32,085 bases of DNA from positions 1-32,085 of the forward strand of contig SLPW01000486.1 in NCBI GenBank assembly GCA_007131755.1, written 5' to 3'. Below the pieces are notes generated by a model. That model did not search any database and was not told where the DNA came from. It was given only the letters and a program-made list of their open reading frames with translations. Each line of letters opens with the position of its first letter. The stretch's first letter is position 1. The DNA is from Myxococcales bacterium (GTDB taxonomy: Bacteria > Myxococcota_A > Bradymonadia > Bradymonadales > Bradymonadaceae). Below are positions 3,037 to 22,684 of the stretch, piece by piece. Position numbers and translations under genes: made by a program.

Positions 3037-4974
3037 ATGGGCGAACAAGAAGTAAAGGGTAAGGTCGACGGCGAAGAGCTTCGCCATTTTATGCGAAAGC
3101 TTCTTCGCGACGTCCACGCCCTGGAGAAGATGCTCGATGAGGGGATGATCGAGTCCGATGTTCGTCGCATCGGGGCGGAGCAGGAGATGTTCCTGTTGGA
3201 CTCAAGCTTTCATCCGGCGCCGCTGGCGTTGAAGTTGTTGGAGCACGTCGACGACGAGCGGCTGACGACGGAGCTGGCGATCTTCAATCTGGAGTTCAAC
3301 CTCGAGCCCCTTCCCTACGGAGGAGACTGCCTGAGAAAGATGGAAGAGTCCATCGACGAGGTGCTGCAGTCGGTGCGCCAGGCGGCACACAAGGAGAACG
3401 GGCATGTGGTGCTGACCGGGATTTTGCCCAGTCTTCGCAAGTCCGATTTGAGCCTGGACAGCATGACGCCCATGCCCAGGTACCGGGCCTTGAACGACGC
3501 TCTGACTCGATTGAGGGGAGGGGATTACGAATTTTATATCAAGGGGGCCGACGAGTTCATCGTCAAGCACGATTCGGTGATGCTCGAGGCCTGCAATACG
3601 TCGTTTCAGGTTCATTTTCAGGTGGGGCCCGACGAATTCTCGAAGCTATATAATATCGCCCAGGCCGTGGCCGGTCCGGTGATGGCCGTGGCCTGCAACA
3701 GCCCCCTCTTATTCGGAAAGAGGTTGTGGCACGAAACGCGGATCGCTCTGTTTCAGCAATCCATCGACACCCGGCCCACCCGTCATCATCTGAGGGAAAA
3801 CAACCCGAGGGTGACCTTCGGAAACGAATGGATCAACGACTCGGTGTTGGAGATCTTTCGAGAGGATGTCGCCCGTTTTCGCCTCCTCTTCGCCATGGAT
3901 ATCGAAGAGGATCCCATCGATGTGATCGAGGCCGGGGGAGTTCCGGCGCTGAAGGCGCTGTGTCTGCACAATAGCACCGTCTACCGCTGGAATCGGCCCT
4001 GTTACGGAATTCTGGACGGAAAGCCCCATCTTCGTATCGAGAACAGAGTGCTTCCTTCGGGGCCGACGCCGGCCGACGAGGTGGCCAACGCGGCGTTCTG
4101 GTTCGGTCTGATGGCGGGGACGGCCGGGGCCTATCCAGATATCCGCGAACATCTGGCCTTCGACGAGGCCAAGAATAATTTTTTCACCGCCGCTCGCCAC
4201 GGTCTGGACGCCCCCATGACCTGGATAGGTGGCGAGAGCGGAACGGCCCGCGAGGTCATTCAATCCACGCTGATTCCCCTGGCGAGAGAGGGGTTGGAGT
4301 CCAGCGGGATCGACAGTGGGGATATCGATCGCTACCTGGGGATGATCGAAGAGCGCGCCAAGCGGCGGCGTACCGGGGCGAGCTGGCTTCTGGAGTCGTT
4401 CAACGAGTTGAGCGACAGTCTTCCCATGAGCGAAAAGCTCAGCGCCCTGACGTCGGCGATGGTCAAGCGCCAGACCGACGGGCAGCCCGTTCACGACTGG
4501 GCCCCGGCGTCGGTAGAGGAGCGAACCACCTGGCGCGACAATTATCTTCGCGTCGAGCAATATATGTCCACCGATCTGATCACCGTCAACGAGGACGAGC
4601 TCATCGACCTGGTGGCCAGCGTGATGGACTGGCAGCACCTGCGCCATGTTCCGGTGGAGGACAACGAACAGCGGCTGGTGGGTCTGGTGACGCGGCGCAC
4701 GATGATGCGCACCCTGGCGAGCGGAAAGTTCCGAGAAGACGAACCGGTGCCGGTGTCGTCGATCATGTTGGAGGACGTCATCACGGTGACCCCCGAAACC
4801 CGCAGTCTGGAGGCCATCAAGCTCATGGCGGAAGAGCAGATCTCCTGTCTGCCCGTGGTCCAGGACGATCGGCTGGTGGGAATCGTCACCGAAAGAGACT
4901 TTATGGACATCGCCCGCGATCTGCTGGAGGAGAAGCTTCGGGGCAATGATCCGAAGGAAGACGGGGATGAATAA
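3037..4974 (+). CDS. Glutamate-cysteine ligase family 2 (GCS2)-like protein with C-terminal tandem CBS domains
   Basis: N-terminal GAEQEMFLLD...ELAIFNLEFNLEPLPYGGD...CNTSFQVHFQV...RIENRVLPSGPTPADEVANAAFWFGLM resembles GCS2. C-terminal YMSTDLITVNEDELIDLVASVM...VGLVTRRTMM and SSIMLEDVITVTPETRSLEAIKLM...LVGIVTERDFM are CBS repeats. Confidence 0.85.
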   Translation: MGEQEVKGKVDGEELRHFMRKLLRDVHALEKMLDEGMIESDVRRIGAEQEMFLLDSSFHPAPLALKLLEHVDDERLTTELAIFNLEFNLEPLPYGGDCLRKMEESIDEVLQSVRQAAHKENGHVVLTGILPSLRKSDLSLDSMTPMPRYRALNDALTRLRGGDYEFYIKGADEFIVKHDSVMLEACNTSFQVHFQVGPDEFSKLYNIAQAVAGPVMAVACNSPLLFGKRLWHETRIALFQQSIDTRPTRHHLRENNPRVTFGNEWINDSVLEIFREDVARFRLLFAMDIEEDPIDVIEAGGVPALKALCLHNSTVYRWNRPCYGILDGKPHLRIENRVLPSGPTPADEVANAAFWFGLMAGTAGAYPDIREHLAFDEAKNNFFTAARHGLDAPMTWIGGESGTAREVIQSTLIPLAREGLESSGIDSGDIDRYLGMIEERAKRRRTGASWLLESFNELSDSLPMSEKLSALTSAMVKRQTDGQPVHDWAPASVEERTTWRDNYLRVEQYMSTDLITVNEDELIDLVASVMDWQHLRHVPVEDNEQRLVGLVTRRTMMRTLASGKFREDEPVPVSSIMLEDVITVTPETRSLEAIKLMAEEQISCLPVVQDDRLVGIVTERDFMDIARDLLEEKLRGNDPKEDGDE

Positions 4975-15278: not shown

Positions 15279-15378
15279 AGTCGCCGCTGGTATTGGTTTA
15301 TTGGGAAGTGCGATCTGAACTGCACACAAGCTACGCCCGGTCGCCGAGTTGCCGGGCCACAACGACAAAGGGGAAGCG

Positions 15379-16431
15379 ATGGGAAAGAAGAATCTGCAGA
15401 ATAAGGAAAAAGCTCTCGACATGACCGTCAAGGCCATCGAGAAACAATTTGGAAAGGGTGCGATCATGCGCCTGGGAGAGGATGATTCGCTGATCGAGGT
15501 CACCGATCCCATTCCGTCCGGTTCGATTGCTCTGGATATAGCCCTGGGGATCGGAGGCTATCCGCGAGGCCGAATCGTCGAGATCTACGGTCCAGAATCG
15601 TCGGGAAAGACGACGCTGGCCCTGCATGCGCTGGCCAACGCCCAGAAGGCGGGAGGAGTGGTGGCGTTCGTCGATGCCGAACACGCCCTTGACGTCAGTT
15701 ACGCCCGGAATCTGGGAGTCAATATCGATGAGCTCCTCATCAGCCAGCCCGATACGGGAGAGCAGGCCCTGGAGATTGTGGACATGTTGGTGCGGTCGAA
15801 CGCCATTGATCTGCTGGTGGTGGATTCGGTGGCAGCCTTGACGCCACGGGCCGAGATCGAAGGTGAGATGGGTGATTCCCACATGGGATTGCAGGCCCGG
15901 TTGATGAGCCAGGCCCTGCGCAAATTGACGGGAACGATCAGCAAGTCCGACACCTGCGTGATCTTCATCAATCAGATTCGGATGAAGATCGGAGTGATGT
16001 TCGGAAATCCGGAGACCACCTCCGGAGGAAGAGCGTTGAAGTTCTACAGCTCCGTACGTCTGGACATCCGGCGCATCGGTGCCATCAAGGACGGTTCGGA
16101 CATCAACGGAAACCGCACCCGTGTCAAGGTGGTCAAGAACAAGGTGGCGCCCCCCTTTAAGCAGGCGGAGTTCGACATCATGTATGGAGAGGGGATCAGC
16201 CTGCAGAGCGATCTGGTGGAGTTGGGTTCGGAGTTGGGGATCGTAGACAAGGCCGGCTCCTGGTACAGCTATGGCGACGATATACGCCTGGGACAGGGAC
16301 GGCAGAACGCCAAGGATTTTCTGAAGGACAATCCGGAGATCCAGAGCGAGATCGAGGCCAAGATTCGCGAGCACTACGGGCTGAAGGTGGCGGCAAAGGC
16401 AGAACAGAAGGAGGAGCAGGCGGCGGATTGA
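15379..16431 (+). CDS. recA: Recombinase RecA
   Basis: [23 protein letters not shown] Walker [81 protein letters not shown] at 15379 follows aaaggggaag SD; the ORF-track start 15349 (TTG) is less likely. Confidence 0.98.
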
Positions 16432-16595: not shown

Positions 16596-17810
16596 ATGAG
16601 TTCGAAGAGCCATTCCGCAAGAGACGCCAAGAGGGGGCTGAACAAGATCTTGAAGGTCGCCGTCAAAGGGGGGGCAAGTGATATCCATATCAAGGCGGGG
16701 TTGCCGCCGGTATTTCGGGTCGACGGCTCGCTGATGCCGTTGCGGGACTCCAAGCGCCTGAGTCCGGAGGAGATCGGACAGATGGCGGCGGCGATCATGA
16801 CCAAATATCAGCGCGAGCAGTTCGAGCGCGATCTCGATCTGGACCTTTCCTACGGGGTGCCAGGGGTGGGCCGATTTCGAGTCAACGTCTTTCAGCAGCG
16901 AGGCTCGATCGGGCTGGTCTTTCGGATCATCCCCTTCAAGGTGGGAAGTATCGAGGAGCTATTATTGCCGGAGGTGATCTCGGAGTTGGCGGAGTCGCGG
17001 CGGGGGCTGATTCTGGTCACGGGAGCGACGGGAAGCGGCAAGTCGACGACTCTGGCGTCGATGGTGGACTATATCAACCAGACGCGCACTGCCCATATCA
17101 TCACCATTGAAGATCCCATCGAATTCTTGATCCGCGACAAGCGCAGCATCATCAACCAGCGGGAGGTGGGAAACGATACCGGTGATTTTTCGCGAGCTCT
17201 CAAGGCGGCGCTGCGTCAGGATCCGGACGTGATCATGCTCGGGGAGATGCGCGATCTGGAGACGATCGAGATTGCCATGACGGCAGCGGAGACGGGGCAC
17301 CTGGTGATGTCGACGCTGCACACGGTGGACGCCGCGGAGTCGGTCAACCGGATCGTCACCGCCTTTCCTCCCCATATGCGCGACCACGCGCGCTACCAAT
17401 TCGCCAATCTGTTCAAGGGGGTCGTCGCCCAGCGCCTGGTGCCGAGAGCCGACGGCAAGGGAAGGGTGCCTGCAGTGGAGGTGATGATGGGCACAGCGCG
17501 AATTCAGGAGATGATTCTGGAGGAAGAGTCGGCGCGCAGTCTGACGGAGCAGATCGCTCAGGGGTTCGACAATTACGGGATGCAGACCTTCGATCAGTCT
17601 CTGATGTGGCTGCTGCAAAACGGCTATATCACCTATGAGGAGGCGTTGGTTCAGTCAACGAATCCCGACGACTTTGCGTTGCGGGTCAGCGGTGTGGCGT
17701 CGTCGACGAATGACGGACAGTGGGACGATTTCGAGGGGCCCGGCGATTCGAGTTTCGACGATGACGATGATGATTTTAATCTCGACGAGTTTGAGATCGA
17801 CCGGTTCTGA
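16596..17810 (+). CDS. pilT: Type IV pilus retraction ATPase PilT, with acidic C-terminal extension
   Basis: ASDIHIKAGLPPVFRVDG; GATGSGKSTTLASMVDYIN Walker A; LRQDPDVIMLGEMRDLETIEIAMTAAETGHLVMSTLHTVDAAESVNRI; tail FEGPGDSSFDDDDDDFNLDEFEIDRF. Confidence 0.95.
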   Translation: MSSKSHSARDAKRGLNKILKVAVKGGASDIHIKAGLPPVFRVDGSLMPLRDSKRLSPEEIGQMAAAIMTKYQREQFERDLDLDLSYGVPGVGRFRVNVFQQRGSIGLVFRIIPFKVGSIEELLLPEVISELAESRRGLILVTGATGSGKSTTLASMVDYINQTRTAHIITIEDPIEFLIRDKRSIINQREVGNDTGDFSRALKAALRQDPDVIMLGEMRDLETIEIAMTAAETGHLVMSTLHTVDAAESVNRIVTAFPPHMRDHARYQFANLFKGVVAQRLVPRADGKGRVPAVEVMMGTARIQEMILEEESARSLTEQIAQGFDNYGMQTFDQSLMWLLQNGYITYEEALVQSTNPDDFALRVSGVASSTNDGQWDDFEGPGDSSFDDDDDDFNLDEFEIDRF

Positions 17811-17903: not shown

Positions 17904-19271
17904 ATGACGACAGGCTTGTGGCGAGGATTGTTGGTGGGGTTGGCGGCCCTGGGGGCGGTGATGGTGTCCACTCCGGCTGTGGCGAGCGAGGAGGATGGAG
18001 AAAGTCTCCGGGTGGTGATCGCCAAGGTCTCCGACGGCAGTGACCAGGTCATCGAGCAGGCACTTCGCGATCTAGAGGGGCTCGAGTTTCGCTCCTACGA
18101 CTGGTTCGTCGACCAGGCTCGGTCTCGAGCCTTGAATCCGGAAGGAATACTGACGAATCCGTCGGATTTGATGTGGGCCATGGATGGCGGCGCGATCGGG
18201 CTGATCATCGATATCGTCGAAGAAGACGATCAGGATTACCGGGTGCGGTTCATCACCGATGAGGAGGCGGTGGCGGAGCACGAATTTCTGGCCGATCGTG
18301 GTCACGACGGAGCGATTCGCCGTGGGGGGGCGACGGTGATAAAGGTGGAATTGGAGCGGTTTTTGGGGCGCGACGCCGATCGGTGGACGGCGGCGATGGC
18401 GGCGGGACGAGAGGATTCGCAGCCCGCAGAGGAAGACGAAGAGAGCACGCAGGAGGTCGATCTCAGTGATCCACAGGCGATGCGGGATGCCGCTGCGGCC
18501 GATGATGAGGAGTTGCTTCAGATCTTGAGTCGGGACTGGCTGTGGTTGCGCGCTCATCTACGCATCTTTAACAAAGACGTGTCCGTGGCGGCGGAGAACG
18601 CCGTATTTACCCACAACTCCGGACAGTTTTTCGGCTACGAGTTGGACGTGGAGGCCTTTCCCTTCGGTCAATCGAATCCGGAGTTGATGGAGGCGGGCTT
18701 TTACGCCACCTTCAGTCATGGATTTTATGATATGACGGTCACCGATGTCTCCAATGGGGACGATCCGCAGTCCGTGGCGGTGTCGGTGACGAATTTGACC
18801 GTGGAAGGGGGAGCCCTCTATCGTCTCGACACGCCGCTGGAGGATAGTAACCGCCAGGTGCGGTTTAAGTTGGGCGGTCGATACGACAGCTACTCTTTGA
18901 CGGAGAATCCGGCGGTGCCAAATATGAGCATGATCTCGCTGGTGCTGGGAACACGGCTGGTGATGCCTGTAGCGACCGAGGAGTTTGCGGTGACGGCGGG
19001 ACTCGATATCTCGCCATTGGCCTTTTTTGGTGCCGGTTCGGACATCTTCGGGGCCGACTCGTTTAGCTTCGGATTCGGTTCGGAGTTGGGTGTGTTGGTG
19101 GAGGTGATGGACAACGGCTTTTTGTCAGCGGGCTATTCGTTTCGGCTCATGAGAAGCGACTTCAGTGACGCCGGGGAGCCGATTCACGAGGGAAGCGAGC
19201 TGGTGTTTAGCGATTCGGAGGTCTTCGATCTCAATCACGGGTTGCGCGCCGGGTTTGTGTACCAATACTAA
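17904..19271 (+). CDS. Hypothetical secreted/outer-membrane protein with probable C-terminal beta-barrel
   Basis: Signal peptide LLVGLAALGAVMVSTPAVASEE; C-terminal alternating amphipathic strands (VRFKLGGRYDSYSL, FLSAGYSFRLMRSDF) ending in GLRAGFVYQY. Confidence 0.7.
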   Translation: MTTGLWRGLLVGLAALGAVMVSTPAVASEEDGESLRVVIAKVSDGSDQVIEQALRDLEGLEFRSYDWFVDQARSRALNPEGILTNPSDLMWAMDGGAIGLIIDIVEEDDQDYRVRFITDEEAVAEHEFLADRGHDGAIRRGGATVIKVELERFLGRDADRWTAAMAAGREDSQPAEEDEESTQEVDLSDPQAMRDAAAADDEELLQILSRDWLWLRAHLRIFNKDVSVAAENAVFTHNSGQFFGYELDVEAFPFGQSNPELMEAGFYATFSHGFYDMTVTDVSNGDDPQSVAVSVTNLTVEGGALYRLDTPLEDSNRQVRFKLGGRYDSYSLTENPAVPNMSMISLVLGTRLVMPVATEEFAVTAGLDISPLAFFGAGSDIFGADSFSFGFGSELGVLVEVMDNGFLSAGYSFRLMRSDFSDAGEPIHEGSELVFSDSEVFDLNHGLRAGFVYQY

Positions 19272-19323: not shown

Positions 19324-21177
19324 GTGTCGGATCCAAACTACTCAGCAATACGGGCCCGCCTTCGGTACGAGAATGTCGAAGAGTTCGTCGACAGCTACGG
19401 CCGCTATATTTCGCGGCGCGGAATGTTCTTGCCGATGGCAGCGAGCAAATTGAAGCCGGTGGGCACAACGGTTCGCTTTCAGTTGCTGTTGGCCGACGGG
19501 ACATCGGCGATGCTCGGTGAAGGGGTGGTGCGCAAATTGAAGGGGTTGGACGACGCCTCCACGGACGGTCCGGTGGGGATGTTGGTGAAATTCTCCAAAC
19601 TCAGTCCGGACTCCAAGAAGCTTGTCGACCGGGTGGTCAAGGAGAAGGAGGAGGCGAAGAGAACGATTCGTCAAACGCAGCCTACACCGGGCGGGCAACC
19701 GGCGGTGACGGCCGAGGCTGCGAGCAGTGCGACCACGGGAGTCCTGGCAGCGGAACAAGCCGATCAGTTGGTCAGTGAGGCCGGTTCCGATTCTGAGGCA
19801 TCACTGGCAGAGACCAATCAACCCGATCATGGTCCGAGGACCCGCGAAGTGGAGCTTCCCGTTGATGACGAGTCAGACACCATGACCTCAGGCGATGAGG
19901 TCTTCGGCGGCGCGACGTCACAGGCCGCTGTCGACGGTGACCCGGCTGAGGCAGTAGCGGAGGCGCTGGACAGCGGTACCTACGAAGCGGCGGCGCAGTC
20001 GACTCCGTCCGTGAGCGCAGAGACACTGCAAGAAGAGAGCGATCCCTTTGCGGGATTGGCAGATGAAATGCTGGAGGGATTCAATCAATCTTCTCAGGAG
20101 CAAGAGTCGGACTACCTGGGTGGAAGTGCTGATGAACTGGAGGACGATGCAGATTTTTTCTCCGAGCCGCAGGAACCCGCCGGCGATGAAGGTGCTGCGT
20201 CTGAGGAGGACGTCGCCTCCGGTGGCGCCGATGGCGATCTTCAGCAGTCACAGGAAGAAGCAAAGGAGGCCCACGAACCGAAGGCGCTCGCGCAGTCTGA
20301 AGGTGGCCTGAAGGTGATGGCCTACGACGAGTCGGACTACGATGAAGCGGCCACCCGAGATTTCGAACAATTCGCCCTTGCTGGTGAAGAGGGCGAGGTG
20401 GACGAGATGTTCGACAATATCTTCGGCGGTGGAGGGGACGACGGTCTCTTCGGAGGCGGCGGGGGTGATGACGACGGGATAGACGATTTCTTCGGCGCTG
20501 AAAGTGACGGGGCAGCCGAAGAACCGGGATCTGAGGATGTCGAAGAGGAGAGCGAAGCAGGCCTGGAAGTGGACAGTGAATTTGTGGCCGAAGAAGAGGA
20601 GGTCGCGCAGGTGGGGCCACCGCCGGCTGCCGAAGCTCAGGAGGCATCTGACGAGGAAGGCCCGGATATTCCTGGCGATGAGGAAGCACAGAAGGACTCG
20701 GACCTCGATCTGGCCGATGACGATGGCGACGAGGAGTGGGGCTGGACTTCCGAAGAGGACGACGATGACGACGAGGTGGAGGATTCGATCTCGATTCGGG
20801 AGGTCGAAGGCGACTCCACTGACCATATCCAATCGCTATTGTCCATGGATGACGAGGATGACGATGAGGAGCCAGAGCTGACCCTGAATATCGGCGGAGG
20901 AACCCTTCAGGAAGAATCTTCGGAGGTAGAGGACGAGCCCGATCCAGACGACAGCATGGAGATGCTGTTGGCGACGGCGAAGCAGGACCTGGAGAGCAAG
21001 AAGGAAGCGGAGACGGAAGAGGATGACGACCGCGATATCCTCGATGAACTCCTCGGTGAGGACGATGACCTCCCGCCGCCGATAGCCGGTCCCGTGCCGC
21101 TGGATCTTCCCGATCCGGGCCAGTCCAAGAAGAAGAAAAAGGGCTTTATCTCCAAATTCTTCGGCGGAGATGACTGA
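19324..21177 (+). CDS. PilZ-like domain protein with a long acidic disordered region and basic C-terminal tail
   Basis: GTG start at 19324 with gagagga upstream. N-terminal YENVEEFVDSYGRYISRRGMFLPMAASKLKPVGTTVRFQLLLADGTSAMLGEGVVRKL...PVGMLVKFSKLSPDSKKLVDRVV resembles myxobacterial TIGR02266-type PilZ domains; about 480 aa D/E-rich region; tail QSKKKKKGFISKFFGGDD. Confidence 0.75.
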   Translation: MSDPNYSAIRARLRYENVEEFVDSYGRYISRRGMFLPMAASKLKPVGTTVRFQLLLADGTSAMLGEGVVRKLKGLDDASTDGPVGMLVKFSKLSPDSKKLVDRVVKEKEEAKRTIRQTQPTPGGQPAVTAEAASSATTGVLAAEQADQLVSEAGSDSEASLAETNQPDHGPRTREVELPVDDESDTMTSGDEVFGGATSQAAVDGDPAEAVAEALDSGTYEAAAQSTPSVSAETLQEESDPFAGLADEMLEGFNQSSQEQESDYLGGSADELEDDADFFSEPQEPAGDEGAASEEDVASGGADGDLQQSQEEAKEAHEPKALAQSEGGLKVMAYDESDYDEAATRDFEQFALAGEEGEVDEMFDNIFGGGGDDGLFGGGGGDDDGIDDFFGAESDGAAEEPGSEDVEEESEAGLEVDSEFVAEEEEVAQVGPPPAAEAQEASDEEGPDIPGDEEAQKDSDLDLADDDGDEEWGWTSEEDDDDDEVEDSISIREVEGDSTDHIQSLLSMDDEDDDEEPELTLNIGGGTLQEESSEVEDEPDPDDSMEMLLATAKQDLESKKEAETEEDDDRDILDELLGEDDDLPPPIAGPVPLDLPDPGQSKKKKKGFISKFFGGDD

Positions 21178-21868: not shown

Positions 21869-22684
21869 ATGGAAGCGACGAAGTTGGAAGCACGCACGTT
21901 CGACCGAAAACCCTATTATAAAGACCAGCGGGGATTTACCCTCTTTCAGGGGGATTCTCTCCAATTGTTGGCCGAGATGGAGTCGGAGCAATTCGACATG
22001 ATCTTTGCCGATCCTCCCTATTTTCTGTCCAACGACGGTGTCACCTGTAAGTCGGGCAGAATGGTATCGGTCAACAAAGGCCGATGGGACAAGTCGAAAG
22101 GGGTGGAGAATAATCACGCCTTCAACCTGCAGTGGCTCGAGCAATGTCAGCGTCTGTTGAAGCCCAATGGGACGATCTGGGTCAGCGGGACCTTCCACGT
22201 TGTCTTCTCGCTGGGCTTCGCGATGCAGCAGTTGGATTATAAGATCTTGAACGATATCTCTTGGTTCAAGGTCAATCCACCGCCGAATCTGTCGTGTCGC
22301 TACTTCACGCACAGCACGGAGACGGTGATCTGGGCGGCGAAGAACAAGGACAGCCGTTATACCTTCAATTATAAGAAGATGAAGGAGATGAACGGCGGCA
22401 AGCAGATGAAAAGCCTGTGGCATATCATGTCGCCGCGAAAGGCGGAGAAGAAGCACGGCAAGCACCCGACGCAAAAGCCCATCAAGCTGATGAACCGGAT
22501 CGTTTTGGCGGCCTCCGATCCAGGCGATCGCATCCTCGATCCCTTCTGCGGATCGTCGACGACGGGACTGGCGGCGGTGGATCAGGGACGGCAATTCGTG
22601 GGAATCGATCAGAGCGAGGAATATCTCGATCTGTCCATCAAGCGCTTTGAGGACCTGGTCGCCGAGGGAGCAGAACAGGAATGA
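21869..22684 (+). CDS. Site-specific DNA-methyltransferase (adenine-specific, DpnA/M2.DpnII-like; predicted GATC)
   Basis: MIFADPPYFLSNDGVTCKSGRMVSVNKGRWDKSKG, NPPPNLSCRYFTHSTETVIWAAKN, GKHPTQKPIKLMNRIVLAASDPGDRILDPFCGSSTTGLAA. DPPY precedes FCGSSTTG. Close to the DpnA pattern as I remember it. Confidence 0.85.
   Translation: MEATKLEARTFDRKPYYKDQRGFTLFQGDSLQLLAEMESEQFDMIFADPPYFLSNDGVTCKSGRMVSVNKGRWDKSKGVENNHAFNLQWLEQCQRLLKPNGTIWVSGTFHVVFSLGFAMQQLDYKILNDISWFKVNPPPNLSCRYFTHSTETVIWAAKNKDSRYTFNYKKMKEMNGGKQMKSLWHIMSPRKAEKKHGKHPTQKPIKLMNRIVLAASDPGDRILDPFCGSSTTGLAAVDQGRQFVGIDQSEEYLDLSIKRFEDLVAEGAEQE

Follow-up and report, generated by a model that had tools for sequence, protein, structure and literature searches.

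A PilZ-type protein with an acidic disordered linker and a MinD-like C-terminal tail is encoded close to pilT in many Bradymonadia

Within the 32,085-nucleotide stretch of DNA analyzed here (the window), recA, pilT2, a gene for an outer-membrane barrel protein, and a gene for a PilZ-type protein, from here on referred to as the scaffold, lie on the + strand in an operon-like arrangement with gaps of 52 to 164 bases. The scaffold ORF extends from a GTG start codon at 19324 to a TGA stop codon at 21175 to 21177, and its 617-aa product consists of three parts, i.e., a PilZ-type domain (residues 1 to 112), an acidic linker of ~480 aa, and a Lys-rich C-terminal tail. The features of the locus are as follows:

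15349..16431, + strand: RecA, upstream neighbor (sequence by eye; conserved position, i.e., synteny)
16596..17810, + strand: PilT2, a PilT-family retraction ATPase with the acidic C-terminal tail DDDDDDFNLDEFEIDRF (TIGR01420, 464 bits at a cutoff of 319)
17904..19271, + strand: outer-membrane barrel protein with an apparent signal peptide, an N-terminal alpha/beta domain, and a 10-strand beta-barrel (AF2, Foldseek)
19324..21177, + strand: scaffold gene, encoding PilZ-type domain, disordered linker, and tail (617 aa, GTG start; ORF and translation; orthologs with the same start and end)
19324..19659, + strand: PilZ-type (TIGR02266) domain, residues 1 to 112 (profiles, AF2, Foldseek; RxxxR absent, N/DxSxxG changed to YISRRG)
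19660..21120, + strand: acidic linker, mostly disordered (composition, AF2 pLDDT)
20295..20336 (approximate), + strand: linker motif SEGGLKVMAYDE, TEGGLKVMAFD in orthologs (ortholog alignment, motif tally)
20392..20505 (approximate), + strand: FG cluster EVDEMFDNIFGGGGDDGLFGGGGGDDDGIDDFFGAE with the amphipathic core xDxMFDxIFGG (motif tally; predicted helix 359 to 367)
20944..21018, + strand: predicted linker helix 541 to 565, DSMEMLLATAKQDLESKK, with SLEALLASAKKEI in orthologs (AF2 pLDDT 65 to 72 over residues 541 to 560; alignment)
21034..21081, + strand: conserved motif DILDELLGEDDDLPPP (alignment, tally)
21121..21174, + strand: Lys-rich, MinD-like C-terminal tail QSKKKKKGFISKFFGGDD (ortholog conservation; comparison with Escherichia coli MinD)

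The translation contains each of the short motifs named in the original prediction (DNIFGGGG, GLFGGGG, DDFFGAE, DELLGED, and SKFFGGDD) as well as the end QSKKKKKGFISKFFGGDD. The GTG start and the N-terminus V[ST]D.NFSAIRARL are common to all eight of the eight named relatives, with NFSAIRATL as the one variant. The host genome is 5.6 Mb and 88% complete. The gene is complete in Lujinxingia vulgaris, and the other named close relatives are an assembly of the Lujinxingiaceae and ones labeled Myxococcales, which most likely places the host in the Bradymonadia; altogether, we identified ~30 orthologs in the same class, all of which share the PilZ-type domain.

The N-terminus had been predicted to be PilZ-like. 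The domain alone matched TIGR02266 with an E-value of 1.3e-15 and 57.3 bits, which is below the curated cutoff of 68.7; among 30 orthologs, TIGR02266 matched all 30 and Pfam PilZ matched 21 (best E-value, 6e-7). The AF2 model, with pLDDT values mostly of 79 to 87 across residues 11 to 110, has strands at residues 8 to 15, 33 to 37, 49 to 56, 61 to 73, and 85 to 93 and a helix at residues 95 to 118. In Foldseek, the top matches were all PilZ proteins with target-normalized TM scores of 0.50 to 0.58, and the best were structures of the Xanthomonas type IV pilus PilZ protein (7lkm, a PilB-PilZ complex; 3dsg; and 4fou; probability 1.0). A PDB sequence search with the N-terminal domain gave nothing meaningful. 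By fold and profile, the N-terminal domain belongs to the PilZ superfamily.

PilZ effectors that bind c-di-GMP are recognized by RxxxR together with N/DxSxxG, and the scaffold domain has neither in intact form. Its chain starts beyond the site of the RxxxR loop in the alignment, so the loop is absent, and N/DxSxxG reads YISRRG, with the N/D residue replaced in 30 of 30 aligned orthologs. More distant TIGR02266 relatives still have NLSRGG-type motifs, and two PilZ paralogs of the same genome keep RxxxR, one of which (on C573) also keeps NxSxxG. The title of structure 3dsg refers to trivial c-di-GMP binding. Because both motifs are missing or degenerate and the fold is closest to the Xanthomonas pilus PilZ protein, which does not bind c-di-GMP, regulation of the scaffold by c-di-GMP appears unlikely from its sequence, and we do not retain this part of the original prediction.

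The type IV pilus PilZ proteins (Xanthomonas XAC1133/XC1028 and Pseudomonas PilZ) resemble the scaffold in having the same fold, no canonical c-di-GMP motifs, and linkage to pilus-motor genes. However, the known proteins comprise ~120 aa and act on PilB, whereas in the scaffold the domain is followed by an acidic chain of 480 aa and then by a membrane-type tail, and the scaffold gene is linked to that of a PilT paralog. Type IV pilus PilZ binds the N-terminal domain of PilB via its C-terminal residues (PMC8389850); because the C-terminus of the domain runs on into the linker in the scaffold, the same interface with PilB is unlikely here. The Myxococcus PilZ paralogs PlpA, PixA, and PixB have the same kind of domain as the scaffold, being putative TIGR02266 members. 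According to the sections of the Myxococcus survey drawn on here (PMC8316039), PlpA regulates reversals and does not bind c-di-GMP in vitro, and of 24 PilZ proteins, 14 consist of PilZ alone, while the rest have additional domains, e.g., signaling, acetyltransferase, or chaperone domains; these sections mention no acidic linker with a MinD-like tail.

Almost every complete ortholog of the class retains the Lys-rich tail (KKKGFxSKLFGKD), as do two genomes beyond the class, which supports the predicted basic end as a conserved element. The scaffold ends with KKKKKGFISKFFGGDD, and KKKGF[IML]SK[LFI]FGKD-type forms are present in nearly all complete orthologs of its family, in one genome each of families f2 (G023) and f6 (G031), and in most members of family f5. 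Variant tails are KKKGFFKRIFGK in G095, KKKGFLKKIFGK in G182, and KKKGFWSRLFGK in G027; the exceptions are G018, in which the tail has no lysines, and G040 and G030, which have variants. Searching with a degenerate nucleotide pattern of the tail, we obtained one match each in 7 of 19 relative genomes, in the scaffold gene wherever checked, while the reversed control pattern gave zero matches.

The tail closely resembles the membrane-targeting sequence of E. coli MinD, KKGFLKRLFGG. As read from the genome record, the C-terminus of MinD is EKKGFLKRLFGG, and the corresponding scaffold sequence is KKKGFISKFFGGDD, each located at the extreme C-terminus. In MinD, this segment is known to form an amphipathic helix that binds membranes (PMC8155659). 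MinD differs from the scaffold in being an ATPase whose membrane binding is gated by dimerization; because the scaffold has no ATPase, the likeness of the two tails likely reflects convergence. The tail had also been predicted to be amphipathic; its MinD-like sequence is in agreement with this idea, but the short tail, taken alone, has no significant hydrophobic moment as a helix (p about 0.25). The likeness to MinD is close and positional and provides a precedent for the predicted membrane tether; because this statistic is not significant on its own, the tail is best described as a putative inner-membrane anchor. In another Myxococcota family, proteins encoded at three loci (L161, L162, and L163 in genomes G212, G228, and G193, respectively) end with KKGFFKKLFG after a long low-complexity chain, which is acidic in L162 and L163, and have no evident PilZ domain; they thus share the scaffold's combination of chain and tail.

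The linker is strongly acidic, with 32% D+E, 4% K+R, and a net charge of about −140, and the lysines K602 to 606 form the one basic cluster. It is also predicted to be disordered, with AF2 pLDDT values below 50 across most of residues 119 to 333 and 389 to 540 and short helices predicted at residues 341 to 352, 359 to 367, 499 to 509, and 541 to 565. In agreement with the repeated motifs predicted for this region, [FLI]FG triplets occur four times in the scaffold versus 0.20 expected in composition-preserving shuffles (p=0.0002), and their copy number ranges from one to seven per ortholog. The core motif phi-[DE]-x-phi-[FL]-x-x-phi was present in 29 of 35 orthologs versus 0.04 expected per protein, using a pattern that is a loosened form of xDxMFDxIFGG written after viewing the alignment and a set of 35 sequences that includes truncated ones. 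It has the form EVDEMFDNIFGGGG in the scaffold, LDSLFSGI in family f5, and LDSIFDEIGGG in G027 (family f4). Alignment and tally show family-level conservation of three further linker motifs, SLEALLASAKKEI, DILDELLGDDLPPP, and TEGGLKVMAFD. The original prediction hinged on conservation of the motifs and the tail and on a PilZ-like N-terminus, and it survived the comparison of ~30 orthologs on these points.

The combination of PilZ domain, acidic linker, and MinD-like tail appears to be a new domain architecture in the PilZ superfamily. In the part of the open-access literature covered by our searches, we found no description of this architecture, and looking there for work on TIGR02266, on the tail sequence, or on acidic condensates at cell poles likewise gave no relevant publications.

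PilT2 of the window is the second PilT of this genome; the other is encoded after pilB on contig C95, and PilB-type ATPases are present in this genome and in those of relatives. In all 23 of the family- and order-level loci examined, pilT adjoins the scaffold gene or is separated from it by the barrel gene; in G013, there are extra genes between pilT and the scaffold gene. pilT is also located near the scaffold gene, together with recA, in G027 and G030 of family f4 in the same class, as well as in G095, which falls outside the class and in which a barrel gene and alaS intervene. Thus, the predicted linkage to pilT is borne out, and the order pilT2-barrel gene-scaffold gene is kept across two families and further out. 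The barrel protein (AF2 mean pLDDT 77.7) matched no Pfam or NCBIfam family and, in Foldseek, matched outer-membrane barrels only. The acidic PilT2 tail ends with xI[DE]RF, is absent from the main PilT of the genome, and is found phylum-wide; PilT2 with this tail is widespread in the phylum where the tailed scaffold is mostly not seen. A specific pairing of the PilT2 tail with the scaffold, which we considered as a candidate, was weakened because this tail is not tied to the scaffold. Elsewhere, positions 21869 to 22684 of the window encode an adenine DNA methylase (CcrM is the best NCBIfam match but, at 239.7 bits, falls well short of the cutoff of 830), with no restriction gene noticed alongside; the single ORF at 3037 to 4974 weakly matches glutamate-cysteine ligase and, after this region, has two CBS domains; and a bactofilin-like stretch was noticed by eye downstream of the G095 scaffold gene (L097, 9492 to 10487).

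Based on these data, we tentatively propose, with a probability of roughly 45%, that the scaffold is a multivalent adaptor, tethered to the inner membrane, for components of the type IV pilus motor. This is the simplest account that, besides the PilZ-type domain, covers the anchor-like tail, the conservation of linker motifs, and the linkage to pilT. The scaffold would reside in the cytoplasm, with its MinD-like tail attaching it to the inner membrane, and the PilZ-type domain, having lost c-di-GMP binding, would serve as a protein-binding module comparable to pilus PilZ with PilB in Xanthomonas. The acidic chain would display the conserved amphipathic motifs xDxMFDxIFGG, SLEALLASAKKEI, and DILDELLGDDLPPP for binding of partners, most likely parts of the type IV pilus motor, among them PilT2, whose gene lies two genes upstream. 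A weak membrane anchor combined with multivalency would then concentrate the motor ATPase at pilus bases. Counting against this proposal are the f5 loci described below, the occurrence of PilT2 and its acidic tail in much of the phylum where the tailed scaffold is mostly not seen, and the nonsignificant hydrophobic moment of the tail.

Alternatively, the scaffold may be a general membrane-tethered regulatory or chaperone-linked adaptor with an ancestral partner such as HSP70 or a broadly used membrane process, the linkage to pilT being inherited gene order of some branches. The f5 ortholog keeps the PilZ domain and the tail but adjoins an HSP70 gene (dnaK; checked in G042), away from pilT, which was not found near the f5 scaffold loci; this suggests that the role of the scaffold may not be purely pilus related and that its ancestral function may be broader. 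A close PilT2 homolog was not found in the two f5 genomes sampled, although f5 genomes do carry other PilT-family members and pilus-type ATPases. The G182 ortholog has neither pilT nor recA nearby, and PilZ proteins with DnaK or DnaJ domains exist in Myxococcus, as described in the sections of the survey mentioned above (PMC8316039). Nevertheless, the linkage to pilT extends over two families, is present in f4, and reaches beyond the class in G095, with the barrel gene retained in between in most f1 genomes, and we consider a general adaptor unlikely. An f5 ortholog adjoining an HSP70 gene is that of locus L056 (4769 to 6370), and locus L134 has two adjacent PilZ-type proteins with C-termini that look DnaK-like by eye.

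PopZ, SpmX, RomR, and FimV/HubP are acidic, disordered polar organizers in which a long chain displays short binding motifs; compared by description only, the scaffold is similarly long, acidic, and disordered with short motifs. The original prediction included a condensate-forming polarity or motility hub, in which the linker would phase-separate and organize front-rear polarity. Such a hub would be consistent with the long acidic disordered chain, the aromatic-Gly motifs repeated above chance, the anchor-like tail, and the pilus linkage. However, the uniformly high negative charge with few basic residues would be atypical of a self-condensing chain, and the conserved element is a single core motif rather than the FG repeats, which vary in number; we consider this explanation quite improbable. 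Finally, the basic tail, opposite in charge to both the linker and the PilT2 tail DDDDDDFNLDEFEIDRF, might be an electrostatic clamp that folds back on its own acidic chain or binds the PilT2 tail instead of a membrane, but this is highly improbable because the tail is equally conserved in f5, in which pilT is not nearby, its hydrophobic residues agree with those of an anchor known to bind membranes, and the PilT2 tail is phylum-wide without being tied to the scaffold.

Extending the proposed membrane-tethered adaptor for pilus motors, the PilZ domain may have been repurposed as a docking module in membrane-tethered disordered recruitment scaffolds that organize pilus motors in Bradymonadia and other Myxococcota, with the design of an acidic chain plus a MinD-like tail having arisen more than once in the phylum. 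These scaffolds would form a previously undescribed class; we regard this combined proposition as possible but doubtful.

For most bacteria, it is still an open question how the motors of pili are positioned and passed on at the pilus base. An adaptor that is conserved, is encoded by a single gene next to that of a retraction ATPase, and combines an anchor-like tail with defined candidate motifs for binding would make this question directly testable in a lineage that includes predatory species. The scaffold also extends the PilZ superfamily beyond c-di-GMP sensing.
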